The position numbers and the translations under genes were made by a program. The notes below the pieces were generated by a model. That model was not told the DNA's origin. It was given only the letters and a program-made list of their open reading frames with translations, and ran no database searches. A stretch of 34,163 nucleotides of DNA from an uncultured Acidobacteriia bacterium (GTDB lineage Bacteria > Acidobacteriota > Terriglobia > Bryobacterales > Bryobacteraceae), in NCBI GenBank assembly GCA_903925015.1, contig CAIYDY010000319.1, positions 1-34,163 on the forward strand, read 5' to 3'. Shown here piece by piece: positions 2,349 to 34,163 of this stretch; within the stretch, counting starts at the first letter, position 1, and every line of letters begins with the position of its first letter.

Positions 2349-2481
2349 CCGTGGATAGCGGCAATGTTTCGTGAATTCCCTCGACGTCTTGAAATCCCGT
2401 GATCCTGGAGATGGCTCTGGGATAAGATTGGTGGGGATTTCCCGTCGTCCAAAACCCGTTGTCCCAACCAGGAGTTTCCGC

Positions 2482-3627: not shown

Positions 3628-3646
3628 AGATAAGGACTCCGACATC

Positions 3647-4783
3647 ATGTTCCGCAGCGCAACAATTTCCCTATTGATCACCCTCGGCTCGACGACAGCC
3701 TTGGCACAGACCCCTCCGCCCGCAGTCGGAGTTCGTCCGGCACGCCCAACGCCACCAACCCGGGACCCGCATACGCCCGGGTACGTAGCGGCCAAGGAGT
3801 TGGCCGACGGGGCCATCCCTTCGCCCAAGGAGGACGGCAACTTCATCCTTGGGCCAACGCACAACCCGGCACCCGAAATGGCTGTCCAGCCGGGTGTCCC
3901 GCAGGGCCAAGTCTTCGACTTCACGGTGGAATCCAAGGACAGCAAAATTTATCCGGGTATCGCACGGGAGCCGGGCACGTTCGGCACCCCGGACGACAAG
4001 GATCCGTCGAAGCTGATCGTGACCACGAGCCACCCGGCAGCGTACACCCGAAAGATTTCCGTGTACGTACCCAAGCAGTATGTCCCCGGTACGGTCGCGC
4101 CGTTCATTGTGGGTGCGGACGGTCCGGACAAGGGGCTGTTTCAAGCCCTGGACAACCTCATCGCGCAACATCGTTTGCCGGTGATGATCGGCATCGCGAT
4201 CGGCAACGGCTCGGGCGATGCCCAAGGGAGCCAACGCGGGTTGGAGTACGACACAATGTCCGGCCTCTATGCGGAATTCGTGGAGAAGGAAATTCTGCCC
4301 TTGGTCGAAAAGACCTGCAACGTCAAGCTGACCAAGGACCCTGACGGCCGGGCAACGATGGGCGGCAGCTCGGGCGGTTCGGCGGCGCTGATCATGGCTT
4401 GGTACCACCCCGAGATGTACCACCGGGTGCTGACGTATTCGGGCACCTACGTGAACCAGCAGTGGCCGCAGAATGACAGCGTCCCGCACGGGGCATGGGA
4501 ATTCCACGAACGGCTGATCCCGAACAGCCCGGTGAAGCCGATCCGGTTGTGGATGGAGGTCGGCGACCGGGACAACTACAACCCCAACATCATGAAGGAC
4601 AACATGCATGATTGGGTTTTGGCGAACGAGAACATGGCGAAGGTGCTGGCGGCCAAGGGCTACCACTACCAGTTCGTGTTTGCGACCAATGCGGGGCATA
4701 CGGACCGCACGGTGAAGGCGCAGACCCTGCCGGAAGCACTGGAATACGTTTGGCAGGGATACCCGGTGGGTGGGAAGAAGTAG
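3647..4783 (+). CDS. Secreted alpha/beta-hydrolase esterase, copy 2
   Basis: A 378-residue paralogue of the preceding esterase, alignable from the PTRDPxTPGYVAAK segment to the C-terminus with only small insertions, so the pair arose by tandem duplication. The ATG at 3647 has AAGGA 10 nt upstream and opens a signal peptide ending TTALAQ. The longer frame from 3416 runs back through copy 1 in another frame and is not real. The nucleophile motif GGSSGG, the acidic loop MEVGDRDN and the His motif NAGHTDRT are all kept, so both copies look active. Differences concentrate in residues 100-125 and in an insertion after GDRDN (YNPNIMKDNM), close to the triad acid. This may change substrate preference. 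Gene end and function are well supported; the substrate is unknown. Confidence 0.88.
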   Translation: MFRSATISLLITLGSTTALAQTPPPAVGVRPARPTPPTRDPHTPGYVAAKELADGAIPSPKEDGNFILGPTHNPAPEMAVQPGVPQGQVFDFTVESKDSKIYPGIAREPGTFGTPDDKDPSKLIVTTSHPAAYTRKISVYVPKQYVPGTVAPFIVGADGPDKGLFQALDNLIAQHRLPVMIGIAIGNGSGDAQGSQRGLEYDTMSGLYAEFVEKEILPLVEKTCNVKLTKDPDGRATMGGSSGGSAALIMAWYHPEMYHRVLTYSGTYVNQQWPQNDSVPHGAWEFHERLIPNSPVKPIRLWMEVGDRDNYNPNIMKDNMHDWVLANENMAKVLAAKGYHYQFVFATNAGHTDRTVKAQTLPEALEYVWQGYPVGGKK

Positions 4784-4856
4784 GGGGGCCAGGCCCCGGG
4801 GTTGGCGGGCGGTGGTGCGGGTAGGGGGGCTCCCAATCCGAAGTACCGAGGCGGCC

Positions 4857-4904
4857 GGTTGTGGCGACCTGGAATGGTCGCCACAACCAAGAATGGCTGC
4901 CCCA
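4857..4904. repeat. REP-like dispersed repeat, copy A
   Basis: A perfect 12-bp inverted repeat (ggttgtggcgac / gtcgccacaacc, 8-nt loop, 4857-4888) is followed by aagaatggctgcccca. Related copies lie at 6161-6208 and 31842-31888. This copy sits between two convergent genes and could also act as a bidirectional terminator. Confidence 0.65.
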
Positions 4905-4935
4905 GGCAAATGCACGGAGGGGGGCGGACCTTCTG

Positions 4936-6057
4936 CTACTTGCCCATCACAAGGATGGTGAACGACCCCGTAATCACTGGAGCCTGGGGGCCGCGGCCAG
5001 AACCGGCGGGAGGAGGTGGCGCGGGGCCGCGCTCCTGAGCCATGGCGAGCACATGCCCGGTTTTGGAGTCGAACGTGATGGTCCGCGCGCCGTTCATCGT
5101 CTTGAGATCCTGTTCGACCTCGAACTCCGTGGGGCTCTTCTCCTTGATGATCGTCATGGTGCCGTTGCCGTGGGTGCTGAAGGCCTCCATTGTGGGCGGG
5201 TTGAAGGCCGCGCCGTCGGAACTGCCGGCCAAGGGGAGGTTTGCGAGGATCTTGCCGTCCTTGGCGCTGAGGATCACCATCATGGGCTGGGGCGGCACCG
5301 CCGGGGGATTGCCGGAACGTCCGCAAGCCGCGAACAGGACTTGGTTTTTGACATCGAGAGCCAGACCGTTGCAGCCGCCCTTGTCGACGAGCGAGTAATG
5401 GGCGGTCGCCTTCATGGTCTTCACGTCCACCACGGTGACAGAGCCGACCGCGTCCTGCATGACGACATAGAGAGTGCCCTTGCCGTCGGCGACGCCCTGT
5501 TCGGGAACTCCGCCAAGGTCGATGGTGCCGAGGACGGTGCCGTCCTTGGAGTCGATCACGGTGGCGTCCTTGGTGGGATGGCTGAAGACGTAGACCCGTT
5601 GGTTGAAGGAATCGAAGAGGATGCCGTCGGGCCGGGCCGCGCCGACGTCGATGCTCTTGATCAGGGTCAGGGTCTTGGTATCGAACATGGACACCTTGGG
5701 ATGGTCGCTGGTGAAGCCGTGTCCGGACTTGGGGTCGACGGTGGCACCGTTTCCGCCCACGCCGGGAATTTCACCGACGGGTGCGAGGGTGTCGAGGTTG
5801 AAGACGGTGAGGCGAGGGCCGACCTCGGCAACAGCGGGGGTGGTGTCGGTGGCGGGAATGGCCTTGGCCGCGCCGCGCGGGATGTAGATGCGGCGGCCGG
5901 CGTCGTCGGCGAAAATGTAGTCCCAGCCGCCTTCGCCGCCGACGCGCGCGGTCTTGAGGACCTTGTAGGGGCCGTCTTTTCCAGGTGCGCCCTGCTGTGC
6001 CGAACCGGTCGCTGACAGCGTTGCTGCCACCCACAACATGGCAATACGTTTTTGCAT
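4936..6057 (-). CDS. Secreted YVTN/YncE-type beta-propeller
   Basis: A 373-residue protein with a signal peptide (residues 1-20, ending ATGSAQQ). The body consists of about seven repeats of the YVTN 40-residue type: LTVFNLDTLAPVGEIPG, VSMFDTKTLTLIKSIDVG, ATVIDSKDGTVLGTIDLGG, VTVVDVKTMKATAHYSL and similar. This predicts a seven-bladed propeller outside the cytoplasm. Family members bind ligands or DNA, or serve as scaffolds; none of the repeats shows a catalytic motif. A GGGAG ribosome site is 10 nt before the ATG. About 400 bp without a gene lie upstream. The long plus-strand frame covering 4861-6015 is an antisense shadow. Fold is confident, role unknown. Confidence 0.87.
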   Translation of the reverse strand: MQKRIAMLWVAATLSATGSAQQGAPGKDGPYKVLKTARVGGEGGWDYIFADDAGRRIYIPRGAAKAIPATDTTPAVAEVGPRLTVFNLDTLAPVGEIPGVGGNGATVDPKSGHGFTSDHPKVSMFDTKTLTLIKSIDVGAARPDGILFDSFNQRVYVFSHPTKDATVIDSKDGTVLGTIDLGGVPEQGVADGKGTLYVVMQDAVGSVTVVDVKTMKATAHYSLVDKGGCNGLALDVKNQVLFAACGRSGNPPAVPPQPMMVILSAKDGKILANLPLAGSSDGAAFNPPTMEAFSTHGNGTMTIIKEKSPTEFEVEQDLKTMNGARTITFDSKTGHVLAMAQERGPAPPPPAGSGRGPQAPVITGSFTILVMGK

Positions 6058-13213: not shown

Positions 13214-14112
13214 GAGAAGCGCTCCGTCACGAAAATCCCCGCAAAGACCATGCCGCCTGCTGCAAGCGCCCCTTCGCCCACTCGTTCGCCGAGAATGAGA
13301 AAAGCCAAGGCGGTCGCGATTACCGGCTGCAGGTACTGGAACGCGCCCACCCGCGAGGCGGGAATCCGGGCAAGAACGTAGTAGTAAATCAGATAGCCTG
13401 TTACCGACGAAAACGCGCCCATGTAGAACATGCCGAACCAAGCTCCGGGTGAAAGCTTCGAAAACTGAAAGTTGCGGCCAGCCCACCACAGAAGGGGTGC
13501 CAGCAGCACCGATCCACCAACGTAGCCCATCGCATTCACGGCGATACCACCCAGTTTCGGCTTGTGCCGCTTTCCAAATACCGTCATCGCGGCCAAGGGG
13601 ATCGCACAGCCCAAAATAAGGAAATCGCCCAGTAGCGTTGGCTGTTGCTGTCCGGCGACGGATTGCGTGCGGATGAATTGCAGCGAAACCACTCCCATCA
13701 GAGCGATTCCAATTCCCAGCAGGCGGATCCGGTTGATCGGCTCCAACCGCATTGCAGCCGCCATCCCAACAACCCACAACGGAGTCGTCGCCATGATCAT
13801 GGACGAGTGCAGCACCGTCGTCCTAGCCACCCCCAGCGTCCAAAAAAGTTGGTTGACCGTGATGCCGCCAACACCGAGAACCGCCAGCAGGCACAAGTCG
13901 CGCGGCGTGGCCTCGATCTTGCGGCCTCGCGACTGGTACCAGAAAATCGGCACGATCAGAACCGCCGAGACCAAGGTGCGGATGCAGATCACAATCTCGG
14001 CCGGCACCTCGCGAAATACAATCCGGGCGGCAATATAGTTGCCGGACCAGCACAACATCATCACGGCAATCAGCAGGTACAGGAGAGCGTTCGAGGTCTT
14101 CCCGGCGCTCAT
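13210..14112 (-). CDS. EamA/DMT-family exporter
   Basis: A 300-residue membrane protein with ten predicted transmembrane segments in two EamA repeats. The first repeat covers about 10-145 and the second about 160-290, with conserved LFWTLGVARTTVLHSSMI and YYYVLARIPASRVGAFQYLQPV. Family members export amino acids and related metabolites. Its ATG overlaps the upstream enolase stop (ATGA) and its TGA overlaps the MFS start (TTGA). It is thus tightly coupled on both sides. With an NSAR/OSBS-type enzyme upstream, an amino-acid or N-acyl amino-acid substrate is plausible but unproven. Confidence 0.9.
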   Translation of the reverse strand: MSAGKTSNALLYLLIAVMMLCWSGNYIAARIVFREVPAEIVICIRTLVSAVLIVPIFWYQSRGRKIEATPRDLCLLAVLGVGGITVNQLFWTLGVARTTVLHSSMIMATTPLWVVGMAAAMRLEPINRIRLLGIGIALMGVVSLQFIRTQSVAGQQQPTLLGDFLILGCAIPLAAMTVFGKRHKPKLGGIAVNAMGYVGGSVLLAPLLWWAGRNFQFSKLSPGAWFGMFYMGAFSSVTGYLIYYYVLARIPASRVGAFQYLQPVIATALAFLILGERVGEGALAAGGMVFAGIFVTERFS

Positions 14113-15248
14113 GCCGCCGCTTTCGGCGTGGCAGCTGTCGAAGTGATGGTTTCGGTTCTAACTGTCACGTGGTCCAAATAGTCGCGGTCGATTTCATAAC
14201 CGAAACCTACGCCGTCCCGAACAGCGATGGTGCCCTGGGCCGTGGTTTCGACTTCGGGGACAATAATGTCCCGCTTCCAATAGCGCTTGCTGGCGGAAAC
14301 ATCGCCGGGCAGAGTGAAATTCGGCAAAGTCGCCAGCGCGATATTGTGCGCGCGGCCAATGCCAGCTTCGAGCATCCCGCCGCACCAGACCGGAATTCCC
14401 GCCTTCTGGCAGACATCGTGGAGCCGGATGGCCTCTCCGAAACCGCCGACGCGCCCCAGCTTGATGTTGATGATCCGTCCGGCGCGCAGGCGGATGGCCT
14501 GTTCGGCGTGGTGGGCCGAGCGGATGGATTCATCCAAGCAAATCGGCGTTTCCAACCTGGGCTGCAGCTGCGCGTGGTCGATGATATCGTCGTGGGCCAA
14601 GGGCTGCTCGATCATCATGAGCATGAATTCGTCAAGCTGGCGCAACCGGTCCGCATCGGCAAGAGTGTAGGCCGAATTGGCATCGGCCATCAAGCGGACG
14701 GTGGGGAAAGCTTCGCGCACTTTGGCAACGGCCTCTATGTCCCAGCCGGGCTTGATTTTCATCTTTATGCGCTGGTAGCCGGACGCGAGCTCCGTCGATA
14801 TCTTCTCGAGGAGTTGTTCAATAGTGTCCTGAATGCCGATGGAGACACCACAAGGAATCTCCCGGCGGGCACCCCCGCCAATTTCCTTCCAAAGTGGGTT
14901 GCCGTTGCGCCGAGCCTGGAGATCCCAAACAGCGGCCTCGACCCCACCCCGCGCCATCTTGTGGCCACGAATGTGCCGGATGAGCGGATCCACATCCTGA
15001 GCAGTTTCAATTTCACGGCCCAACAACCGGGGAGCGACGTAGTCACGCGCAATGGACCAAGCCGAAACCGTCCATTCCTCGTTGTAGAAGGGGTTCTCAC
15101 CCGCGGTAATTTCGCCCCAGCCGGAAAGCCCGTCGCTTTCGACCTCAACAACGATAATGTCGCGGGCGTACGTGCGCGAAAAACTGGTCTCAAAAAAGTG
15201 CACCAACGGCATCCGGAGGTGCCGGAGTGTAATCCTGTCGAGTTTCAT
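14109..15248 (-). CDS. NSAR/OSBS-type enolase-superfamily enzyme
   Basis: A 379-residue enolase-superfamily protein of the N-succinylamino acid racemase / o-succinylbenzoate synthase branch. Diagnostic segments are GWGEITAGENPFYNEEW, RIKMKIKPGWD, DANSAYTLAD and MIEQPLAHDD. The catalytic set is complete and falls in the positions expected for the family: Lys162-x-Lys164 and Lys263 as the two bases, with Asp189, Glu214 and Asp239 as Mg ligands. It could be MenC of menaquinone synthesis or an N-acyl amino-acid racemase. No other men gene is in view, and it leads an operon with two transporters and an SDR, so racemase-type amino-acid metabolism seems likelier. No clear Shine-Dalgarno is seen. A region of 109 bp separates it from the pseudo-MPN gene. 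Confidence 0.88.
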   Translation of the reverse strand: MKLDRITLRHLRMPLVHFFETSFSRTYARDIIVVEVESDGLSGWGEITAGENPFYNEEWTVSAWSIARDYVAPRLLGREIETAQDVDPLIRHIRGHKMARGGVEAAVWDLQARRNGNPLWKEIGGGARREIPCGVSIGIQDTIEQLLEKISTELASGYQRIKMKIKPGWDIEAVAKVREAFPTVRLMADANSAYTLADADRLRQLDEFMLMMIEQPLAHDDIIDHAQLQPRLETPICLDESIRSAHHAEQAIRLRAGRIINIKLGRVGGFGEAIRLHDVCQKAGIPVWCGGMLEAGIGRAHNIALATLPNFTLPGDVSASKRYWKRDIIVPEVETTAQGTIAVRDGVGFGYEIDRDYLDHVTVRTETITSTAATPKAAA

Positions 15249-23857: not shown

Positions 23858-24514
23858 GTGTCCGATTTGATCTCAAAAGCCGACGTTCTGCCGCTGCACT
23901 CCCGAACACCCTTGGAGTGGGGCCGCGCCGTATTGGCCGATCCGGTGCCCTTGTTGGCGGACCACGCCTTTCTTGAAAAGAAGGCTGCGCAGAACGCGAT
24001 GGAATTGCTGACCCGATGGCCGGGCGAGTGGCTGCCCGGCTGGGTGGAAACCATGACCGGCATCGCGCGCGACGAGGCAGCGCATTTATCCCAGGTGGTG
24101 CGCCTTCTGACCCGGCGCGGAGGTCGTTTGGGACGGAGCCACAGCAACCCCTACGCCAGCCAGCTCCGCGCTTTGGTCAGGCTGGGCGGACAGGACGAGA
24201 TCATCGACCGGCTGTTCGCGTCCGCGCTGATCGAGCTGAGGTCGTGCGAGCGGTTTTCGGTTCTGGCTACGTGCGCGGCAGAGATGGAAGGCGCAGAAGA
24301 TCTGGCTGCGCTGTACAAGGCCTTGTTTTCATCCGAGCTGGGACATTTCAAGGTATTCCTGAAAGCCGCACACCGCACAGCGGGCGGCGGTGTGCGCCGC
24401 AAGCTGGCAAGCATTCCCGTCGAGTTCCGATGGCAGGAGATGCTGGCAGCTGAAGCGAAAATCCTGGAGGGCCAAGCCGTCGGCCCCCGAATCCATTCAG
24501 GCGTACCCGCCTAG
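23858..24514 (+). CDS. miaE: tRNA-(ms2io6A37) hydroxylase
   Basis: A 218-residue non-heme diiron monooxygenase matching MiaE, which hydroxylates the isopentenyl group of 2-methylthio-N6-isopentenyl-A37 in tRNA with O2. Diiron ligands fit Glu40, Glu73-x2-His76 (RDEAAH), Glu126 (ALIELRS) and Glu160-x2-His163 (SELGH). The N-terminal LHSRTPLEWGRAVLADP and the PGEWLPGWVETMTGIARDE stretch are signature regions. The GTG at 23858 has AAGGTGG 5 nt upstream; an in-frame GTG at 23849 is the alternative. It ends the five-gene run and overlaps the convergent Gfo/Idh gene by 4 nt. MiaE is best known from gammaproteobacteria. The substrate needs MiaA and MiaB, which are not in the window. Confidence 0.9.
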   Translation: MSDLISKADVLPLHSRTPLEWGRAVLADPVPLLADHAFLEKKAAQNAMELLTRWPGEWLPGWVETMTGIARDEAAHLSQVVRLLTRRGGRLGRSHSNPYASQLRALVRLGGQDEIIDRLFASALIELRSCERFSVLATCAAEMEGAEDLAALYKALFSSELGHFKVFLKAAHRTAGGGVRRKLASIPVEFRWQEMLAAEAKILEGQAVGPRIHSGVPA

Positions 24515-25764
24515 GCAAGCCGCCACGGAGCCCGGTAGGGACGGGTCAGGAGCTTCGATGCTTCCGCATCGCCAACAATCTGCTCCTTGGCACAGTCCCA
24601 CTTGAGGGACCGTCCCAACTTGGTGGAAATATTGCCCAAGTGGCACATGATCGCGGACCGGTGGCCGTCCTCGATGTCGGCGTTCGGGCGCTTGCGGCTC
24701 TTCACACAGTCGAGGAAGTTTCTGGCGTGGGTCTGGTCCAATTCCCCGCCCTTCACGTTCATGGCGGGCATTGCGGCTTTGGCGTCGCTTTTGGAACCGA
24801 TTTTCTCCGGGGTCACGGTATAGCCGTTGCGGAGAAGGGTCATCATGCCCTTGGTCCCGTAGATGTCGAGGGTGACCGGCTTGCCCTCGGCAACCTCGCT
24901 TGAGGTCCACGTAATCAACATTTTCGGGAAGCGGTAGGTGACCTGTTGGAGGTCCGGGGTTTCCCCACCGTCGGTCAGCGAGTAACGTCCACCGAAACCC
25001 GAGACTTCCGACGGCCCGTCGGCATTGGCGATCCAGCGGGCGATGTCCAGATGGTGCGCACCCCAGTTGGTCATCTGGCCCCCGGAATAGTCCCAGAACC
25101 ATCGGAAATTATAGATGCAGCGGAAGGGGTCGAAATCCCGCTTCGGGGCAGGACCCAGCCACATGTCCCAGTCGAGCGCGGAGGTCAATCCCGAAGCAAG
25201 CTCAGTGGGCTTGAGGCCGGGGTAGAGGTTGCGCTGGAAACCGGCATGGATGCGGTGGACTTCCCCGATACCGCCATCCTGAATGAGCTTGACTGCCTCG
25301 GCGTAGTGGGAACCCGAACGCTGCTGGCTGCCAGTCTGGACGACACGGTTGTTCTTCCGTGCCGCATCCACCATCTTTCGGCCCTCGGTGACGAAGAGCG
25401 AAAGCGGCTTTTCGCAGTAGACATCCTTGCCCGCTTGGCAGGCCGCGATGGTGATGTAGGCGTGCCAGTGGTCCGGAGTCGCCACGATCACGGCGTCCAA
25501 GTCCTTCTGTTCCAGAAGCTTGCGGAAATCCTTGTAGGGCTTGGCCCGGCCGCCGGTCATCTCGATGCCTTGTTCACGGAAAGGATCGTAGACGTCGCAG
25601 ACGGCCATCGGGTCCACGTCGGATTGCTTCACAAACTGGGACCAATCCTGTCGGCCACGGCCGCCTGAACCGATAAGTCCGACCCGGATGCGGTCATTGG
25701 CACCCATCACGCGGGAGGCTCCGAGGGCGGAGAGGGCTGAAATTGCAAACGTTCGTCGGTTCAT
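24511..25764 (-). CDS. Tat-exported Gfo/Idh/MocA oxidoreductase
   Basis: A 417-residue oxidoreductase. The N-terminus MNRRTFAISALSALGAS is a Tat signal (RRTFAIS). The Rossmann fold follows with GLIGSGGRG (30-38), VATPDHWHA and CEKPLSL, whose Lys is the conserved catalytic residue of the family. The C-terminal domain has the usual GAHHLDIARW helix with active-site His residues. Family members oxidise or reduce sugars and inositols using NAD(P). Because free NAD(P) is absent outside the cytoplasm, a Tat-exported member presumably carries tightly bound cofactor, as Zymomonas glucose-fructose oxidoreductase does. It is last of the exported operon, 9 nt after the enolase gene. Confidence 0.9.
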   Translation of the reverse strand: MNRRTFAISALSALGASRVMGANDRIRVGLIGSGGRGRQDWSQFVKQSDVDPMAVCDVYDPFREQGIEMTGGRAKPYKDFRKLLEQKDLDAVIVATPDHWHAYITIAACQAGKDVYCEKPLSLFVTEGRKMVDAARKNNRVVQTGSQQRSGSHYAEAVKLIQDGGIGEVHRIHAGFQRNLYPGLKPTELASGLTSALDWDMWLGPAPKRDFDPFRCIYNFRWFWDYSGGQMTNWGAHHLDIARWIANADGPSEVSGFGGRYSLTDGGETPDLQQVTYRFPKMLITWTSSEVAEGKPVTLDIYGTKGMMTLLRNGYTVTPEKIGSKSDAKAAMPAMNVKGGELDQTHARNFLDCVKSRKRPNADIEDGHRSAIMCHLGNISTKLGRSLKWDCAKEQIVGDAEASKLLTRPYRAPWRLA

Positions 25765-25773
25765 GCTGATTCC

Positions 25774-27195
25774 TTACGATTTGGACGTGCACAGGCCGGG
25801 GCCGTCCAGCCCGGCAGTCGACATGTAGCCGTCCTTGACTTCGAAAATACCGGGAAAGCGCTTCTCCCAGCCCTTGCTCGCCGACGGCACGTACTCGCGG
25901 GCGTTGGCTTCGAGCGCCGAAGTTGCCGGAACGTGCGCCGCAATCCCGACCGAATGGACCAGAGCTGCGCCCGGGCAGGTCAAATCTTGGACGCAGCGAA
26001 ACATTTTGTACTTCTGGGCGGCGGCGGCAAGGAGAAGCGTCTGCGACTGGCCTTTGCAGGCCTTCAGCGCGACACCCGTGTAGCCCATCTCGCGAGCCAA
26101 CTGCAGCGCATCGAGACCTGTGAGAGACTCGTCGATCACCACCGGGCGCAATTTCGCCGCCTCAAACATGGTGTTCTTCCGGTCGGCCGCGAGGTCCCTG
26201 GCAGTCGGCTGTTCGATGTATTGCACCCGATCAAAGGCCGTGGGTGCAATCGCCTTCAGCCGGCGGTCGAATTCCAAGAGCTGCTGGACGTTCGGGCATT
26301 TTTCGTTGAAGTCGAGCGAGTAGATCCAGTCCTTGAACCCGCGCTTGCCCTGGGCAATGGTCGTTACACGGTCGATTGCGGCCACCCTGTCGACATCCCA
26401 GGCAAGATCCGCGCCGTTGAGCTTGATCTTGATGGCGGTAACACCGCTGTGGGGAATCCAGTCCTCCAATGTTTCCGGCAACCCGTCGTGGATTGGCTTG
26501 GTGATCTCGGCGGCCGTGAGGGGATCGGATGCCCCGGCGGAATGGTACATCCGCACCTTCGGGATCGACTTCGACGAGATGTATTGGTCCAAGTACTCGC
26601 CCTTGAATTCGAGGGTTAGGTAGTGGGCCAAATCGTGCCGGACAAACTCCTTGCCCGAAACCGAGAAGGCGTTGCGGCCATGGAGCCGCCCGAAGGCGTC
26701 GTGGATCGCGGCGTCAAACGGGCTGGCGGTAACCAAGACGCAGAGTTTCGGAATCGGAACGGCCAGATTCCGTTCCTTGGACACTGCCGCGGCGGCTTTG
26801 AGATACTCGGGCTCCAGCGTAAAGTTCGCGTCCAGCGGGTGGCCAAACTCGCGGTAGGCCTTGGTAACCTCCGCGATCTTGGCGGCCAAAGCCTTCATGG
26901 CGTCCAAAGTCACCTCGTATGGCACGCCGGGTGCGGGATAGGACCAGACGTTGCCCATCGACATGGCTGCGTGGCCCTCGGCGGACTTGCCATTCTTCCC
27001 GACGATCCGGCACGACACGTTCAGCATGGTGACGCGGTCGACTTCCTTGCCGCCGAACTTGTAGGGTGTCCGGTACAGAAAGTCTTCGAACGTGAACGAA
27101 ACGTCTTCGATGCGCGCATCGGTGCTTTTGGCACCCAGAAGCAGGGCGGGCATGGCAGCTTGCGTGGCTAGGAACTGGCGGCGGGATAGGGTCAT
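25774..27195 (-). CDS. Tat-exported enolase-superfamily enzyme
   Basis: A 473-residue protein with a Tat signal (LSRRQFLATQAAMPALLLG) and an enolase-superfamily body longer than usual by an insert near residues 85-150. The likely catalytic set is Lys256-x-Lys258 (AIKIKLNG), Asp295 (SLDFNE), Glu328 (IEQP), Asp355 (IDES) and Lys378 (ALKAC). This gives bases on both faces of the site, as in racemases and some acid-sugar dehydratases. It would abstract an alpha-proton from a carboxylate substrate outside the cytoplasm, which is unusual for this superfamily. Its ATG overlaps the NHL gene's stop (ATGA). The substrate is unknown. Confidence 0.87.
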   Translation of the reverse strand: MTLSRRQFLATQAAMPALLLGAKSTDARIEDVSFTFEDFLYRTPYKFGGKEVDRVTMLNVSCRIVGKNGKSAEGHAAMSMGNVWSYPAPGVPYEVTLDAMKALAAKIAEVTKAYREFGHPLDANFTLEPEYLKAAAAVSKERNLAVPIPKLCVLVTASPFDAAIHDAFGRLHGRNAFSVSGKEFVRHDLAHYLTLEFKGEYLDQYISSKSIPKVRMYHSAGASDPLTAAEITKPIHDGLPETLEDWIPHSGVTAIKIKLNGADLAWDVDRVAAIDRVTTIAQGKRGFKDWIYSLDFNEKCPNVQQLLEFDRRLKAIAPTAFDRVQYIEQPTARDLAADRKNTMFEAAKLRPVVIDESLTGLDALQLAREMGYTGVALKACKGQSQTLLLAAAAQKYKMFRCVQDLTCPGAALVHSVGIAAHVPATSALEANAREYVPSASKGWEKRFPGIFEVKDGYMSTAGLDGPGLCTSKS

Positions 27196-28238
27196 CGGAG
27201 GACTCGGATGCGGTGGTTCTCGGAATCACCGATATAGACCACGCCCTTTGAGTCTACAAAGACGCCGTGGGGCCGGGCCAGTTTGGCTTTCCTGGGATCG
27301 CCGTCGGGACCATCCCCGCGTTCCCCGGTACCGGCTACGGTTGTGATGATGCCCTTCGGATCGACCTTGCGGATGACATGGTTTTCGGTATCGGCGATGA
27401 ACAGACTGCCGTCGGGACCCAAGCCAACACCCTTGGGACCGGACAGAGTTGCGAGCCGGGCGTCCCCGCCATCGCCGGTGAAGCCTTTTTGACCTGTGCC
27501 CGCGAATCGGTACATTTTGCCGGATTTGACATCCAGCCGGTAAATCGCGTTGCCTTCGCGCAAGGCGAGGTAATAGTCCCCCTTGGGCGAAATCGCGATT
27601 GCACGGGGCCCGTCCAGCGGAGTGGAGGCAAAAGGCGCGCCGTCGTCGATCTTGCCGCGCTGCCCGGTGCCCGCCCAGGTGTTCAACGTGGCTCTTGCCG
27701 GATCCGGGGCTAGATCCAATACCCGGACCCGGAAGTTGAGGATATCGCAGATCAGCAGCTTGCCATCCGGCGCGAAGGCGATGCTGTGGGGCTGTTTGAA
27801 TTGTGCTTGCAATGCGGGCCCACCATCGCCGCTGAAACCTTCCTTGCCGGTACCTGCCACGGTCGTAATCAGGTGCGTTTTGTGGTCGACCCTGCGGATG
27901 TTGTGGTTTGGACGGTCGCAGAAGAACAGGTCGCCAGCCTTGTTGAAGGCTATTTCATAGGGCTCGTCCACCATTGCCGCCGTAGCGGGACCACCGTCAC
28001 CGGAGTTCCCTTTCTGGCCGGTGCCCACCACGACCGTGTATTTCTTCGTCTTCAGGTCCAACCGGGAAATGCGGTGGGTGCCGATCTCGCAAATATAGAG
28101 TGCCTTGTCGGGACCAATGCCAAGCCCGTAGGGTTGGTCCATTTTCCCGTCGGTGGCACCGGCGACGCCGGTGCCGGCAATTGTCGTGATGGTCTGGGCA
28201 GTCACCAGAACTGGAAACAGCAGCAGGATGGTCTTCAT
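27192..28238 (-). CDS. Secreted NHL-repeat beta-propeller
   Basis: A 348-residue protein with a signal peptide (residues 1-15, ending LVTAQ). About six NHL repeats are visible, each with an AGTGxxGxxGDGGPA loop followed by L-x-x-P-x-G-(I/L)-A and a short D/C-x-x-N-H-R-I-R core, for example RPNHNIRRVD and DTENHVIRKVD. NHL propellers bind proteins or carbohydrates or serve as lyases; no catalytic motif is obvious. Its ATG overlaps the stop of the beta-lactamase-fold gene (ATGA), and its stop overlaps the next ATG, so it is coupled on both sides of the exported operon. Confidence 0.88.
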   Translation of the reverse strand: MKTILLLFPVLVTAQTITTIAGTGVAGATDGKMDQPYGLGIGPDKALYICEIGTHRISRLDLKTKKYTVVVGTGQKGNSGDGGPATAAMVDEPYEIAFNKAGDLFFCDRPNHNIRRVDHKTHLITTVAGTGKEGFSGDGGPALQAQFKQPHSIAFAPDGKLLICDILNFRVRVLDLAPDPARATLNTWAGTGQRGKIDDGAPFASTPLDGPRAIAISPKGDYYLALREGNAIYRLDVKSGKMYRFAGTGQKGFTGDGGDARLATLSGPKGVGLGPDGSLFIADTENHVIRKVDPKGIITTVAGTGERGDGPDGDPRKAKLARPHGVFVDSKGVVYIGDSENHRIRVLR

Positions 28239-29431
28239 TTTTCTATAGCCGCCGTCGCGAGGGCCAGAAACGCATTGATCGGATCGGAGGTGTCGCCGCC
28301 GCCGTTGGTCAACTGATAGAGGATGATGCCCACCAGATCGCGTGCCGGATCAATGAATTCATACGTCCGGTATGCGCCGCCCTTCACAATCGTCCCGACC
28401 GAATTGTAGCGGTATGTCCCGCGGGCATCGCGGATTACCTCGTACCCAAGCCCGTGGCCTGCAAACGGCGCGAACCCGGCCTTGATGTCGCCGGTCATCG
28501 ACGTTCCCATCATCTCTGCCGCCGGAATTGACAAGACCCGCTTTCCGTTCAAACTTCCCTTGTTCAAGATCATCTGGTTGAAGCGGAGAAGATCGTCGGC
28601 CGTACTGAGCAGGCCCCCCTGGGGAGCCGGGATTTTGGGGCCCGTTTGCGTCTCGACCGAGGTGGCGCGCTTCAAGACCCCGTTGTCGTCGGTATAGACC
28701 GCCGCGATCCGGGACTTCTTCGCTTCATCCGGGAAGAACGAGGTGTCCTTCATCCCCAAGGGGGCAAAGACACGGTCCGCCATGAACTTCTCGTACGGCT
28801 GCTTGGAAACCACCTCGATGATCCGCCCCAGCGCCGCGTATCCCACGTTGCTGTAGTTCCAAGCGGTACCGGGTTCAAACAGCAGCATCGTCTTGCCAGC
28901 AGGCGCGACCTGCTCGGCCAGGGTCTGCGGAGGAGTGCGGGATGCCGGAAAGGCACCGGCAAGACCCGAGGTGTGCGTCATCAGGTCCAAAATATTGATG
29001 GGACGCCTTGGCACAACCGACGCGCAATCGTACCCGGCACCCGTGCCGCACCCGACGACCTTCTGGCCCTTGAATTCCGGCAGATACCGCTCCACCGGGT
29101 CCATCACGTTCAAGCGCCCCTCGTCGGCCAGCACCATGATCCCGGCGCAGGTTATGGGCTTGGTCAAAGATGCGATCCGGAAAATGGTATCCGTCCGCAT
29201 CGGCGTCTTGGTTTCGAGTTCCTGGTACCCCATTGCCTCCAGCGCCGCCAGTTGCCCGTGCCGGGCCACCACGGTTACAAAACCGGCGGCCTTCCCTTCG
29301 GCCACGAACTCTTTCATCCGGGCCGGGATTCGGGCCAGGCGCGCGGGGTCCATCCCAGCCCGAACAGGATCGGGGGACTGCGCCAACAGCGGAAGCCCTA
29401 CCACTAAAAATGCAACAAAGACGGAGTTCAC
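28235..29431 (-). CDS. Secreted beta-lactamase-fold serine hydrolase, GTG start
   Basis: A 398-residue protein of the class C beta-lactamase / EstB family (PF00144). The catalytic SxxK is IASLTKPI, the Tyr motif is WNYSNVGY, and a third HGLG-type motif lies near GHGLGYEV. The GTG at 29431 gives a good signal peptide (VNSVFVAFLVVGLPLLAQ). The longer frame to 29827 is antisense to the quinoprotein gene. A TACAAT ends 6 nt before the GTG and there is no Shine-Dalgarno. Family members include esterases, D-amino-acid amidases and D-Ala-D-Ala peptidases, so beta-lactamase activity should not be assumed. It leads the four-gene exported operon. Confidence 0.88.
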   Translation of the reverse strand: MNSVFVAFLVVGLPLLAQSPDPVRAGMDPARLARIPARMKEFVAEGKAAGFVTVVARHGQLAALEAMGYQELETKTPMRTDTIFRIASLTKPITCAGIMVLADEGRLNVMDPVERYLPEFKGQKVVGCGTGAGYDCASVVPRRPINILDLMTHTSGLAGAFPASRTPPQTLAEQVAPAGKTMLLFEPGTAWNYSNVGYAALGRIIEVVSKQPYEKFMADRVFAPLGMKDTSFFPDEAKKSRIAAVYTDDNGVLKRATSVETQTGPKIPAPQGGLLSTADDLLRFNQMILNKGSLNGKRVLSIPAAEMMGTSMTGDIKAGFAPFAGHGLGYEVIRDARGTYRYNSVGTIVKGGAYRTYEFIDPARDLVGIILYQLTNGGGDTSDPINAFLALATAAIEK

Positions 29432-29489: not shown

Positions 29490-31799
29490 ATGCGATCCGC
29501 CATCCTGCTCTGCCTCGCCTCCATTTGTTTATCGGCACAAACACCGCACAACATTAGTCCTTCCGACCTCCAAGAAGGGCAAAGATTGTTCCTGGCCCAA
29601 TGCCCGTCCTGCCACGGTGCCGACGCCAAGGGCGCGCGCGGCCCGGACCTTACGTCCGGCACCTTCCGACACGGCGGCTCCGCTACAGAGATCGCGAAGA
29701 ACATCCGTGAGGGCGTCGCGGGCACGGGCATGCCTGCGTTCCCCCTGCAGGGCAATGGCCCCACGCTGATCGCCGAATGGCTGCTCTCGCTCAACCGCGG
29801 TTCCGGCGACGACCGGGTCACGGGCAACGCCAGCTCCGGCCGGGAAATCTTTTTCGGAACCGGCGGATGCTCGGGGTGCCATGCCGTCCAAGGTGTCGGA
29901 CGCAGTTTCGGCCCCGATCTGACGGCAATCGGCGGTCAGCGCTCGGTCCAAGCCCTGAGACAACAGATTTCACAACCCGGCCAAAATCCGCGCGGAGGAA
30001 ACAAGGGCGCCGAGGTCAAGACCGTGGACGGCAAGGTGATCCGGGCCGCCATCGTCAACGAGAACACCTTCACGCTCCAGCTCCGCGACCGCGACGAAAA
30101 GCTCTACCTGCTCTCAAGATCCGACATCGCCGCCCGCCAGGATCTCAAGACCCTGATGCCGAAGGCCGCCCTATCGCCCGCACAGGTCGACGATGTTATC
30201 GCATTCCTGAAGAAACCGGAGGGAATCCAACCCGACCTCTCGGTGTGGAAACCCGCCGCGGACTTCAACGTTACGTGGCAACGCCTGAGGAACGCAGCCG
30301 CAGAGCCGCAAAACTGGCTGCACTACTGGGGCGACCTACAGGGGACCCACTTCAGCGCTCTCAAATCCATCACCCCGGCCAACGTCTCCAAACTTGCCGC
30401 CCAATGGACGTTCCAGTTCGGCGGCCCGAACGTGGAAGTCACCCCGCTGGTGGCCGACGGGCTGATGTTCGTCACCGGACCGCGTGACAATGCCGCCGCG
30501 CTGGACGCCAAAACCGGCGCACCCGTTTGGCGCTACCGCCGCCCACTGCCCGAATACCACGCCAATTGCACGGTTTCCACCAACCGCGGCTTCGCGATCC
30601 TCGGGGACCGCCTCTATCTGGGCACTCTGGACGCCCATCTTGTCGCGCTCGACGCCAAATCCGGTCGTGTGGTTTTCGATGTCGCCGTGGACGACTACAA
30701 GAAAGGTTTCTCCATCACCCACGCCCCCTTGGTGGTTGGGGACAAGATCATCATCGGCGTCACGGCCGGTGAATGCGCCCTCTACGGCTACCTCGACGCG
30801 TACGACGCCAAGACCGGGAAGCGGCTCTGGCGCGTCCACACGCTGCCCCAACCTGGCGACCCCGCCCGAGCCACATGGGCTGGCAACTCCGCCGACACGG
30901 GCGGGGCGCCCACGTGGATGACCGGCACCTACGATCCGGAAACCGACACCATCTTCTGGGGGACCGGCAATCCATCGCCCGACTACGACGGCACCCCGCG
31001 CGCGGGGGACAACCTGTATTCAGACTCGATGCTCGCCATCGACCCCGCAACCGGCCGCATGAAGTGGTACTTCCAGTTCACGCCACACGACACGCACGAC
31101 TGGGACTCCAGCGAAACACCCGTCCTGGTGAACGCGCCGTACGAGGGCAAGATGCGGAAGCTCCTGCTCCACGCCGACCGCAACGGGTTCTACTACCTCC
31201 TCGACCGCGAAACGGGCAAGTTCCTGCTCGGAAAGGCGTTTACGCGTCAAACCTGGGCCAAGGGCCTCGACGCCAATGGACGCCCCATCGTGATTCCCGG
31301 AACCGATCCCACGCCGGAAGGCAACTATGTTTGCCCCGACGCCACCGGGGCCACGAACTGGAATTCGCCTTCGTACGATCCGGCTGCCAAGCTGCTGTAC
31401 ATTGGCGCCCGTGATTCGTGCGCGACCTATAAGAATGTGACGAAGCCGCCGGTTCCGGGGCTGCCCTATACCGGTACCGGCGACCAAGCGGATGAATCCA
31501 TCGGCGGCAAGGGCGTGGTTACCGCAATTGATCCGTTCACGGGCGAGGTGAAGTGGAAATACGAGTTGAAGTATGGCTCCGCCTCGGCGGGAGTTTTGGG
31601 GACGGCGGGCGGCGTCCTGTTTTCCGCATCCAAGGAGGGATATCTGCTGGCCTTGGATTCGCGCACCGGAAAGCTGCTCTGGAGGTATCAGACGGGGTCC
31701 GAGATGCGGGCTTCGCCGATGTCGTATTCGGTTGATGGGCGGCAATATGTGGCGATTGCGAATGATTCCGCCCTTACGGTTTTTGCTTTGCAGCCGTGA
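29490..31799 (+). CDS. PQQ-dependent dehydrogenase with two N-terminal cytochrome c domains
   Basis: A 769-residue quinoprotein: signal peptide (1-16), cytochrome c domains with CPSCH (38-42) and CSGCH (127-131), then an eight-bladed PQQ propeller from about residue 265. Metal and catalytic residues are Glu428 (AGECA), Asn494 (GTGN) and Asp537 (THDWDS). Asp539, two residues after the catalytic Asp, is the position that marks lanthanide-dependent XoxF- and PedH-type enzymes. The vicinal Cys-Cys disulfide usual in alcohol dehydrogenases is absent; there is a single Cys360. It oxidises an alcohol or aldehyde in the periplasm and passes electrons to its own hemes. The ATG at 29490 has GGGGAA upstream; the longer frame from 28893 is antisense to the beta-lactamase-fold gene. 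Confidence 0.92.
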   Translation: MRSAILLCLASICLSAQTPHNISPSDLQEGQRLFLAQCPSCHGADAKGARGPDLTSGTFRHGGSATEIAKNIREGVAGTGMPAFPLQGNGPTLIAEWLLSLNRGSGDDRVTGNASSGREIFFGTGGCSGCHAVQGVGRSFGPDLTAIGGQRSVQALRQQISQPGQNPRGGNKGAEVKTVDGKVIRAAIVNENTFTLQLRDRDEKLYLLSRSDIAARQDLKTLMPKAALSPAQVDDVIAFLKKPEGIQPDLSVWKPAADFNVTWQRLRNAAAEPQNWLHYWGDLQGTHFSALKSITPANVSKLAAQWTFQFGGPNVEVTPLVADGLMFVTGPRDNAAALDAKTGAPVWRYRRPLPEYHANCTVSTNRGFAILGDRLYLGTLDAHLVALDAKSGRVVFDVAVDDYKKGFSITHAPLVVGDKIIIGVTAGECALYGYLDAYDAKTGKRLWRVHTLPQPGDPARATWAGNSADTGGAPTWMTGTYDPETDTIFWGTGNPSPDYDGTPRAGDNLYSDSMLAIDPATGRMKWYFQFTPHDTHDWDSSETPVLVNAPYEGKMRKLLLHADRNGFYYLLDRETGKFLLGKAFTRQTWAKGLDANGRPIVIPGTDPTPEGNYVCPDATGATNWNSPSYDPAAKLLYIGARDSCATYKNVTKPPVPGLPYTGTGDQADESIGGKGVVTAIDPFTGEVKWKYELKYGSASAGVLGTAGGVLFSASKEGYLLALDSRTGKLLWRYQTGSEMRASPMSYSVDGRQYVAIANDSALTVFALQP

Positions 31800-31841
31800 G
31801 GGGGAATTGGGGCGGGGTGGTGCTGGCGCACCGAGTTGTGC

Positions 31842-31888
31842 GGTTATGGCCGCCTGAAAGGCTGCCGCAGCCAAGATTGGCTGCCCCA
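31842..31888. repeat. REP-like dispersed repeat, copy C
   Basis: It matches copy A from ggtt to the final ctgcccca with one gap and several substitutions. A perfect 7-bp hairpin, gcagcca / tggctgc with loop agat, lies at 31867-31884. The left end of the insertion sequence begins 10 nt further on. Confidence 0.6.
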
Positions 31889-31897
31889 CAACGGGTA

Positions 31898-33424
31898 TGT
31901 ACCGGGGAGATGGTGTACAGAATGTACCGGGGAGATGGTGGACACTTTCATGGGAAGACGATGGAGTCATGCCGTGGAAGGAATGGGGAGTGAAGGAACA
32001 GAGATTCCGGTTTATCGAGGAATGCAGGGACGAGGAGAGGAATATGGCGGAGTTGTGCCGCGATTATGGAATCTCGCGGACAACTGGATACAAGTGGTTG
32101 GTGCGGTACGAAGAGTATGGCATCGACGGTCTGGACGAGCTGTCGCGGGCACCGATGGCGCATCCCAACCGGATTGGCGATGCCATCGAGTCAAGGGTGC
32201 TGGCCGTCCGGGCCAGGCATGGCTCGTGGGGAGCGCCGAAGATCCGCGCGGTGCTGGCCAGGGAGTTGGAGCCGGGATGCCTGCCCGCGGAAAGCACCAT
32301 CGGGGAGATCCTGCGCAGGCACGGCCTGACGGTGCCGGTTGGCAAGCGGCGCGAAAGGCGGCCCGGAGCCGGTCCGCTTGCCGGGGTGGTCGGGGCCAAC
32401 CAAGTGTGGTGCGCCGACTACAAGGGCTGGTTCCGGACAGCGGACGGTGCGAGGATGGACCCGCTGACGGTCAGCGACGCGCACACCCGCTATCTGATCA
32501 AGTAGGGCCTGAAGTCGGCCAGTTCGGACAACACGCGGGCGGTAATGGAGGCGGCCTTCCGCGAGCACGGGTTGCCGGAACGGATCAGGACCGACAACGG
32601 AACCCCGTTCGCGGGCAACGGTGCCAGCGGGTTGAGCGCATTGTCGGTGTGGTGGATCAAGCTGGGAATTGTGCCGGAGCGCATCACGCCCGGCAAACCG
32701 CAGGAAAATGGCCGCCACGAGCGCATGCACCGGACTTTGAAAGCCGAGACAGCCTCGCCGCCGGCCAACAACTGGCGGGCGCAACAGGCCCGGTTCGACC
32801 AGTTCCGGCGGGAATACAACGAGCAACGTCCGCACGAGGCCCTCGGCATGGCGACGCTGGCCAGCGTGTACGGCGGTTCGCCGAGGAGGTATACGGGACG
32901 GCCCGGCCCTGTGGAGTACCCGTCGGACCGGGATGTCCGGATGGTGGCGCCGGGGGGACAAATCCGCTGGCACAGTGGGCATGTGTTCGTGGCCCATGCG
33001 CTGGCGGGCGAGCGGGTGTGGCTGGAGCAGATCGGGGAGCTGCGCTGGAGGGTATGGTTCAGCTTTTACGAAGTCGGGATCATGGAGTCCGGACGGCCCG
33101 GACTTCTCCCGCCGGCCGGAGGCGCGCAATGAACCGGGGCGTGGAAATTGATGGAAGGGGCCATTGCCCGAATGGGGACTCCGTCCCCAAGCCCCTGGGA
33201 TTTTACGCTTTCCGGCCGGGATTCCAGATCAGGGGTGCCGGTGTCGCTGGCACCCTTGAATCCCGGCGACCGGGTCGGCGCTCGGGGTGCGTCCCCGCAG
33301 AGCCCTGTCCTCCGCCCGGTCGCACCTATATTAACAGCTCAAACAACGGGATAATTGATATCCTATTACCCTTGGATGTGTCCACCATGTGCCCGGCACA
33401 AAGTGTTCACCATGGCCCGGTACA
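31898..33424 (+). mobile_element. IS481-like insertion sequence with double terminal repeats
   Basis: About 1.53 kb bounded by TGTACCGGG at the left and its complement CCCGGTACA at the right, with TG/CA outer ends. Each end carries two copies of a motif ending ATGGTGnACA, spaced 25 bp apart (left 31898 and 31923). These are probably paired transposase-binding sites. The single transposase frame reads left to right. Flanking bases (cgggta and ttcaaa) show no target duplication, so one end may have decayed or undergone rearrangement, or the boundary may be off by some bases. Confidence 0.75.
31969..33132 (+). pseudogene. IS481-family transposase with in-frame stop
   Basis: A 387-residue DDE transposase frame beginning MPWKEWGVKEQRFRFI, with a helix-turn-helix (AELCRDYGISRTTGYKWLVRY, about 28-48) and a catalytic core. 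The catalytic residues are Asp150 (WCADYKG), Asp209 (IRTDNG) and Glu246 (KPQENGRHER). Codon 179 (32503-32505) is TAG, after YLIK, and the same frame resumes directly as GLKSASSDNTRAVMEAAF. All else looks intact, so a single CAG or TGG to TAG change is the simplest cause. The first fragment has only the HTH and one Asp and should be inactive. Read-through cannot be excluded from sequence alone. Confidence 0.82.
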
Positions 33425-33467
33425 TTCAAAGACCGGACCGAGGCACTACGGTAATTGTGAAAATGCT
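33133..33467. other. Non-coding stretch: right part of the IS and flank
   Basis: About 335 bp without a gene. It holds the non-coding right portion of the IS, including a long hairpin at 33216-33266 (9-bp ccgggattc / gaatcccgg outer stem and 7-bp gggtgcc / ggcaccc inner stem). It also holds the double terminal motif (33378-33424) and 43 bp of flank. The hairpin may block read-through into or out of the element. Confidence 0.5.
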
Positions 33468-34163
33468 CTAGCGGACTGAAATTGTGACGCCTGTTTGGCT
33501 CGCGACGCCCCCGATTGTGACGAGGACGGGAATGGTCGCGCCTGGCGTGAGCCCGGCTGGCACAACGGTGTTGACCTGCAACAGGCCCGCGACGACGGTC
33601 GGCACGGTGCCCGCGTAAGTGACGGTGGCGGCAAGGCCTCCGATGGTGACCGTGACCGGAAGGTTGGGCCGTTTCAATGTCGTTCCTGTGATCTCGCCGG
33701 TGACACCGGGGGGTGACGTGACGCCTTCGCCGGTTCCATAGATCTGGATGATCGACCCTCGTGCGGCGGGGTTCGACGGGCCGTTGACCGTGTTGTCCTG
33801 GTTGAGCACGGCGGCAGATCCCGCACCGTTCGTCGCCAAGGTGAAAATACCGGGAGCGGATCCGGCGACGGGGTACGTCCCGGCCTGGATCGTGGTGCCG
33901 TTGTTCACCACGGTCACGTTGGTCGACGGGCCCTGCACTTCGTAGGGAACGATGGTGTTGATCACGGTCGGGGAAACGTAGAGCAGGGGGCCCGGAACTC
34001 CGTCGAACAGAACCTTGCCGCCGATTCCCTGCCCCAAGACGGTGACGATTTCGCCCGGCGACAGGCTGCCGACATCCTGCGACGCAGCGTTCACGATAGA
34101 CGATACGATCGGCACGATGTTGGCTTGGGGAACCGGCAGCGGACCGGGGGTCACGGTCATCGA
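33468..34163 (-). CDS. C-terminal part of a TIGR03437-type protein (cut by window edge)
   Basis: At least 231 residues, open to the right edge; the Met at 34160 is probably internal. The sequence (VSSIVNAASQDVGSLSPGEIVTVLGQGIG, then LPVTVTIGGLAATVTYAGTVP and LLQVNTVVPAGLTPGATIPVLVTIGG) matches the domain known as the TIGR03437 Solibacter C-terminal domain. That domain ends many secreted proteins of Solibacter-type acidobacteria. It consists of two Ig/IPT-like beta modules with the typical VNAAS entry and V-P-x-G-L-x-x-G exit. It probably attaches or sorts a larger secreted protein whose N-terminal function lies outside the window. Confidence 0.85.
   Translation of the reverse strand, partial: SMTVTPGPLPVPQANIVPIVSSIVNAASQDVGSLSPGEIVTVLGQGIGGKVLFDGVPGPLLYVSPTVINTIVPYEVQGPSTNVTVVNNGTTIQAGTYPVAGSAPGIFTLATNGAGSAAVLNQDNTVNGPSNPAARGSIIQIYGTGEGVTSPPGVTGEITGTTLKRPNLPVTVTIGGLAATVTYAGTVPTVVAGLLQVNTVVPAGLTPGATIPVLVTIGGVASQTGVTISVR

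Follow-up and report, generated by a model that had tools for sequence, protein, structure and literature searches.

Two possibly separate exported units in a four-gene acidobacterial cluster with an enolase-type enzyme

Whether four closely packed genes whose products all carry export-type N-termini encode a single pathway outside the cytoplasm, or bring together units of separate origin, is the question raised by a 34,163-nucleotide stretch of an uncultured Acidobacteriia bacterium (family Bryobacteraceae; GenBank assembly GCA_903925015.1, contig CAIYDY010000319.1), which we call the window and mean at its full length. A sequence-only reading had taken the four genes, which lie divergent from a di-heme dehydrogenase dependent on pyrroloquinoline quinone (PQQ), for a periplasmic pathway that hydrolyses, isomerises and oxidises a carboxylated substrate. 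We tentatively favor a different reading, to which we give a little less than an even chance, in which the cluster would be a composite, with an exported sugar-oxidising/eliminating module (ENO and GFO) joined by rearrangement to an independent SerH-NHL pair. The genes concerned are:

28235-29431, minus strand: SerH, a serine hydrolase of the class C beta-lactamase/esterase family, 398 aa, GTG start, PF00144 at 9.8e-68
27192-28238, minus strand: NHL, a beta-propeller protein, 348 aa, with NHL repeats (PF01436 and PF25021)
25774-27195, minus strand: ENO, enolase superfamily, muconate-lactonizing enzyme (MLE) type, 473 aa, MR_MLE_C at 5.2e-11
24511-25764, minus strand: GFO, an oxidoreductase of the Gfo/Idh/MocA family, 417 aa, PF01408 at 4.7e-21
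29490-31799, plus strand: divergent PQQ-type dehydrogenase with two c-type haem motifs, Pfam PQQ and cytochrome c

The coordinates bear out four minus-strand genes linked by ATGA overlaps at SerH/NHL and NHL/ENO and by a 9-nt gap at ENO/GFO, with 58 nt separating the SerH start from the divergent gene at 29490. Conservation of this order in other acidobacterial genomes, which the sequence-only reading had proposed to look for, is not what our search returned: SerH lies within 1.3 kb of ENO in 0 of 80 ENO loci (one is found at 1.8 kb, in L056) and NHL in 1 of 80 (again L056), and the four-gene order is not kept. These loci (L056-L135) represent the best 80 of 111 confirmed ENO matches in public genomes, with distances counted from the conserved ENO domain; many are related, such that neighbor counts are not independent events, and 14 have less than 900 bp of flank (5 upstream, 9 downstream). 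Locus genes were called with a crude open reading frame (ORF) chooser, and some are miscalled (e.g., in L060, L135, L175 and L177).

Of 19 genomes of the genus, 9 have SerH and NHL orthologues side by side, the window genome being one of them. The position of ENO is known in six of these pair-bearing genomes, of which four (G124, G153, G179 and G199) have it on another contig and two (the window genome and G187) on the same contig as the pair; among the others, G194 has no ENO match, and G204 and G206 are not in the ENO family sample. In draft genomes separate contigs are no proof of distance between genes, and the clear case is G124, where SerH-NHL is carried by a contig of 874 kb and ENO-GFO by one of 622 kb. 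A gene for an M48 peptidase faces the SerH-NHL pair in G124 (L172), and ORFs at the same position in L173, L174 and L176 score as its relatives, an assignment by score and not by Pfam. The full gene set occurs in the window genome and in its nearest genome, G206, there split over two contigs whose matching pieces are 96-99% identical and end inside NHL and inside ENO. In G187 the PQQ-type gene, SerH, NHL and ENO stand in a row without a GFO orthologue (best 48%), and an opposite-strand PEP-CTERM-like gene, ending PEPGTIALMVAGLGVIVYRRR, which we take to be the motif of that name, sits between NHL and ENO. GFO orthologues of at least 69% identity were found in 5 of the 19 genomes, beside ENO in the window genome, G206 and G124 (in reverse order in the last) and on another contig in G041 and G153. 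We rejected a conserved four-gene operon on the grounds that SerH-NHL and ENO are usually apart and GFO is sporadic near ENO; the SerH-NHL unit would owe its place ahead of ENO to a rearrangement within this species or a near ancestor.

The neighbor that recurs beside ENO is one that is not linked to it in the window genome, a xylose-isomerase-like protein with a triosephosphate isomerase (TIM) barrel. Of the 80 loci, 25 have it no farther than 1.3 kb from ENO (two further matches are more than 2.5 kb away), and in 22 of these it is encoded immediately upstream, on the ENO strand and at no more than 340 bp; the three representatives tested belong to PF01261. All 18 rows passing 42% identity over 180 aa (16 distinct genes) have a start of the twin-arginine translocation (Tat) type. 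Judged by gene neighborhoods, this protein is an unexpected and better-supported candidate partner of ENO. Six of the 80 loci have a GFO orthologue of at least 70% identity no more than 1.3 kb from ENO, in the order ENO-GFO in four (L058, L061, L065 and L072), GFO-ENO in L059 and divergently in L127; in the same four loci (L058, L061, L065 and L072) the xylose-isomerase-like protein, ENO and GFO form one run. Any Gfo/Idh match was seen within 1.3 kb in 12 cases, at 1.3-2.5 kb in 3 and beyond in 8, and PQQ-type proteins within 1.3 kb in 8 of 80 loci, at 1.3-2.5 kb in 1 and beyond in 2. A peptidase gene of family S58 stands two genes from ENO in four loci (Pfam was run for one). The nearest xylose-isomerase-like protein of the window genome is encoded on contig C391; it shares 62-63% identity with two that are linked to ENO, and Gluconate_2-dh3 and GMC genes follow its gene. 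Locus L196 (8883-11993) of the window genome presents a Tat-type xylose-isomerase-like protein, Gluconate_2-dh3 and a weakly pyranose-oxidase-like GMC protein in a row.

The active site of ENO is well preserved. Enolase-superfamily proteins of the MLE subgroup are defined by a KxK motif in strand 2, by three acidic residues in strands 3-5 that bind the metal and by a strand 6 lysine. ENO has this set: K256, K258, D295, E328, D355 and K378 are invariant across 65 sequences and, in the predicted structure (mean predicted local distance difference test score 92.5), lie where the corresponding strands end. The capping domain and barrel fold are likewise present, with 50 fold matches listed at Z 31.7-36.1; the best is a muconate lactonizing enzyme (3dg6, Z 36.1, root-mean-square deviation 3.0 over 346 residues), 1muc_A scores Z 32.2, and the matches listed also include dipeptide epimerases, reaching Z 34.6, and N-acylamino acid racemases, reaching 32.9. 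ENO therefore resembles known MLE-subgroup members (3dg6, 1muc and 3jva) in fold over 330-352 residues at Z 31.7-36.1 and in its KxK, D/E/D and strand 6 lysine, but differs from them in sharing 14-22% identity, in being about 90 residues longer, in its Tat start and in the ExN at the end of strand 8. Dipeptide epimerases typically carry DxD at that last position; in ENO strand 425-429 ends E429-A-N431, with E429 and N431 invariant, unlike the dipeptide-epimerase pattern. A sequence search of the PDB with ENO gave no match at E 0.001, and the sole PDB profile match, 3iji at E 0.019, is tabled as a muconate cycloisomerase, though we presume it to be a dipeptide epimerase. In the family, 144 of the 200 genomes sampled contain a match to ENO, and among the open-licence literature matches listed we found no description of the ENO family or of exported acidobacterial enolase-type enzymes, a weak negative. 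ENO represents a widespread, uncharacterised enolase family that is probably exported in acidobacteria, and its occurrence, conserved MLE-type active site and lack of a PDB match mark it as an unread piece of acidobacterial carbon metabolism.

GFO is a Gfo/Idh/MocA-family protein with PF01408, PF19051, PF22725 and PF02894 above their cut-offs, a Rossmann glycine motif (GSGGRG at 32), EKP at 118 and a GAHHLD motif. Its best named model is the glycoside 3-dehydrogenase BT_2158 (NF058561), at 171.1 bits against a cut-off of 750, such that the assignment to that model fails. The pairing of a Gfo/Idh enzyme with a xylose-isomerase-like enzyme is known from inositol catabolism, where IolG and IolE oxidise and then dehydrate; the present module shares this pairing and gives weak NCBIfam matches to both, but GFO scores 103.6 of 355 against the IolG inositol dehydrogenase model and the xylose-isomerase-like protein 32.4 of 290 against IolE, far under the equivalog cut-offs. 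We know of no enolase-type partner in the BT2158 system. According to the excerpt available from PMC11300592, BT2158 of Bacteroides is a periplasmic glycoside 3-dehydrogenase of the Gfo/Idh family, and its family model is the top NCBIfam match of GFO, though at a score far under the cut-off. Glucose-fructose oxidoreductase (GFOR) of Zymomonas and aldose-aldose oxidoreductase (AAOR, CC1225) of Caulobacter have Tat signals in the part of PMC4628093 that we draw on, and to that extent GFO resembles them as a Gfo/Idh/MocA enzyme with a Tat-like start; it differs from them in that the match to 1ofg and 1h6a spans about 96 residues and in that GFO adjoins an enolase-type enzyme. The excerpted text of PMC10628242 describes an Agrobacterium operon (GlycDH, AtOGE, AtHYD and Gfo) in which glycoside oxidation is followed by beta-elimination, with a sugar-phosphate-isomerase-like eliminase and a Gfo partner. 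The module resembles that operon in pairing a Gfo oxidoreductase with sugar-phosphate-isomerase-like enzymes and differs in including ENO, no enolase-type enzyme being met with in that excerpt.

Because of the fold, the active site, the model matches and the Agrobacterium precedent of oxidation followed by elimination, we favor a sugar-acid or glycoside route for the module with moderate confidence. ENO and a Tat-type TIM barrel of the xylose-isomerase-like kind (PF01261) would be its commonest members, accompanied at times by GFO and at times by a PQQ-type cytochrome c dehydrogenase. We infer the substrates and the order of reactions as follows. By analogy with glucose-fructose oxidoreductase, GFO would turn a ring hydroxyl on a sugar or glycoside into a ketone by oxidation with NAD(P) that it carries and does not release; the xylose-isomerase-like enzyme, like IolE or the glycoside eliminase AtOGE, would eliminate or isomerise next to the ketone; and ENO, with a metal on D295/E328/D355 and the lysines K258/K378, would take the proton alpha to the carboxylate of a sugar-acid or lactone intermediate. 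In the window genome the likely xylose-isomerase-like partner would be the one on C391, beside a GMC oxidoreductase. The divergent gene product passes the PQQ-dependent alcohol dehydrogenase model TIGR03075 (508.6 bits, cut-off 480.05), scores 521.5 bits against the acido-empty-quinoprotein model TIGR04528, under its cut-off of 650, and has CxxCH at 38 and 127 without a CC pair. The description of this gene as a di-heme PQQ dehydrogenase is supported by the two CxxCH motifs, and the recurrence of PQQ-type proteins near ENO lends mild support to a role in the pathway, tempered by the origin of five of the eight near-ENO cases (L077, L091 and L093-L095) from closely related records. The best PqqE score in the window genome, a 97% complete draft, is 78.7 against a cut-off of 381.35 bits, and all 14 control genomes are also below it, which makes this a weak negative.

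All four products of the cluster carry export signals, as had been claimed, when judged from motif and hydropathy: SerH and NHL have short hydrophobic N-termini of the general secretory (Sec) type, ENO a Tat start and GFO a Tat start with a weaker motif. The Tat test pattern was the TatP default, RR.[FGAVML][LITMVF], as given in the excerpt of PMC1182353. The ENO start SRRQFL (RRQFL) fits this pattern and is followed by a hydrophobic stretch, and the GFO start NRRTFA (RRTFA) fails it at the last position. All 10 GFO rows (9 distinct genes, since L059 and L190 are one gene; L179 is 99% identical to the window) keep the twin arginine and hydrophobic stretch, and all 10 NHL rows (9 distinct genes) have a Sec-like start. 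The sequence-only reading further held that enolase and Gfo/Idh enzymes are normally cytoplasmic, and this fails in the window genome, where N-termini read as Tat-type in 13 and Sec-type in 2 of 25 Gfo/Idh proteins, and as Tat-type in 9 of 15 enolase-type proteins examined (16 matches), the window's own two being among the 15. With independent draws, one from each family, a pair of Tat-type starts would come up in roughly three of ten cases, and because this background is high we rejected the export signals of these two proteins by themselves as a gauge of surprise. Hydrolases of PF00144 and NHL proteins are often exported. The signals are conserved, but four exported products together are not in themselves remarkable in this genome, and the frequency of Tat-type starts cautions against placing Gfo/Idh and enolase-type proteins in the cytoplasm by family. 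TatC of the window genome is seen as two partial matches on separate contigs, one at a contig end. The second enolase-type (MR_MLE) protein of the window (14109-15248, minus strand) is without an export-type start.

Beyond the genus, the compartment of ENO appears to follow phylum with exceptions. Tat-type starts are present in 66 of 66 evaluable acidobacterial loci in L056-L135 (the incomplete L129 was left out), and the strict TatP pattern in 64 of 67, one of the three misses being incomplete. Three loci of one genus of the same family outside this set (L008, L010 and L012) have RG for RR (TRGEFL) and keep a strong hydrophobic stretch, which on sequence is a natural change of signal type and breaks any clean Tat rule. 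Of the 13 non-acidobacterial loci, four are Tat-type (records labelled Kiritimatiellae, Lentisphaerae and, twice, Akkermansia) and nine lack a signal (Gemmataceae or Gemmatales, other Planctomycetota and one unclassified bacterium); in L117, L124, L128, L130 and L132 the ENO open frame leaves no space for one. Homologous operons lacking the signals had been named as what would count against the sequence-only reading: signal-less ENO orthologues do exist, though none belongs to a homologous four-gene operon. Signal-less xylose-isomerase-like TIM barrels adjoin ENO in L132 (two genes upstream, 32-34% identical to the acidobacterial kind) and in L135 (directly upstream, 24% identical). From these two loci, few as they are, the association seems to exist without export, which suggests that the chemistry does not need it. 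L132 presents two ENO paralogues, a TIM barrel and, by eye, a uroporphyrinogen-decarboxylase-like protein (213-1577 and 2676-5898), with no export-type starts. Orthologues with and without a signal would provide a natural experiment on the ability of a sugar-acid route to switch compartment. A bolder form of the proposal, which we regard as rather unlikely, is that an ENO family with a possibly new reaction, the xylose-isomerase-like protein and an NAD(P)-carrying Gfo/Idh enzyme make up an extracytoplasmic oxidise-eliminate-isomerise route for carboxylated sugars in acidobacteria, that its core is intracellular in some Planctomycetota, and that the pathway switched compartment between phyla.

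Several observations weigh against the composite reading. The 171 bits of GFO fall well short of the 750 needed for the glycoside 3-dehydrogenase model, and the IolE score of the xylose-isomerase-like protein (32.4 of 290) is also far from its cut-off; only 25 of the 80 loci have this protein close to ENO (14 loci being short-flanked), and in the window genome the likely partner is unlinked to ENO. The Gfo/Idh family as a whole seems weakly enriched beside ENO, and GFO is at best an optional partner. SerH (1.8 kb) and NHL also stand upstream of ENO in G187, and the ATGA overlaps favor co-transcription of all four genes in the window. These last points are shared by a single four-step extracytoplasmic pathway for a carboxylated substrate, which SerH would free, NHL bind or open, ENO isomerise and GFO oxidise. 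The overlaps, the 9-nt gap, the export-type starts on all four, the matching pieces of G206 that end inside NHL and ENO, and the row of PQQ-type gene, SerH, NHL and ENO in G187 all speak for it, but near ENO SerH is missing from 80 of 80 loci and NHL from 79, ENO is on another contig in four of the six informative pair-bearing genomes, and the opposite-strand gene of G187 parts NHL from ENO, which together make this pathway quite improbable in our view. What stands of the proposed periplasmic pathway is ENO and GFO together outside the cytoplasm, as their joint occurrence in 6 of 80 loci suggests, and what does not is its extension to SerH and NHL.

It is also possible, though we think it doubtful, that exported ENO epimerises or racemises peptides or N-acyl amino acids and that SerH attacks wall or protein material as a peptidase or amidase. 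Dipeptide epimerases (Z 34.6) and N-acylamino acid racemases (32.9) are not far under the best MLE match (36.1), the sole PDB profile match 3iji is presumably such an epimerase, and the S58 peptidase gene recurs in four loci; yet ENO carries the invariant ExN in place of the DxD typical of dipeptide epimerases, and the commonest ENO neighbor found is a sugar-type TIM barrel. An unlikely but somewhat more credible account is that no pathway is shared at all, that the many Gfo/Idh and enolase-type enzymes exported in this lineage act on unrelated substrates, and that the four genes are chance neighbors. Tat-type starts are indeed common in both families genome-wide, neighborhoods change between loci and GFO-ENO linkage is sporadic, whereas the recurrence of GFO orthologues by ENO in six loci in three arrangements, the strong concentration of the xylose-isomerase-like protein at ENO and its signal-less counterparts in L132 and L135 argue otherwise. 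For the composite of a sugar-directed module and a SerH-NHL pair, the genes present, the motif-based signals, the conserved active site, the fold, the separate conservation of each unit and the neighbor that recurs at ENO are shown; the substrates, the reaction order, the bound NAD(P) and the joining rearrangement are inferred.

Further features of the window complete the description. SerH has the motifs of class C beta-lactamase-type enzymes, SxxK at S88 (S88-LTK) and YxN at Y193 (Y193-SN). Scans for promoters (4 promoter-like sites versus 0.9 in shuffles, none upstream of SerH on the SerH strand) and for terminators (4 terminator-like sites versus 5.2 in shuffles) were uninformative. Two tandem similar proteins, esterase-like by eye and each with an in-frame Sec-type start, are encoded at 2371-4783 on the plus strand. 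Just downstream of the PQQ-type gene a transposase-like piece extends over 31836-33479 on the plus strand, of which 31897-32505 matches the HTH and LZ_Tnp_IS481 models, and this piece may be linked to the proposed rearrangement.

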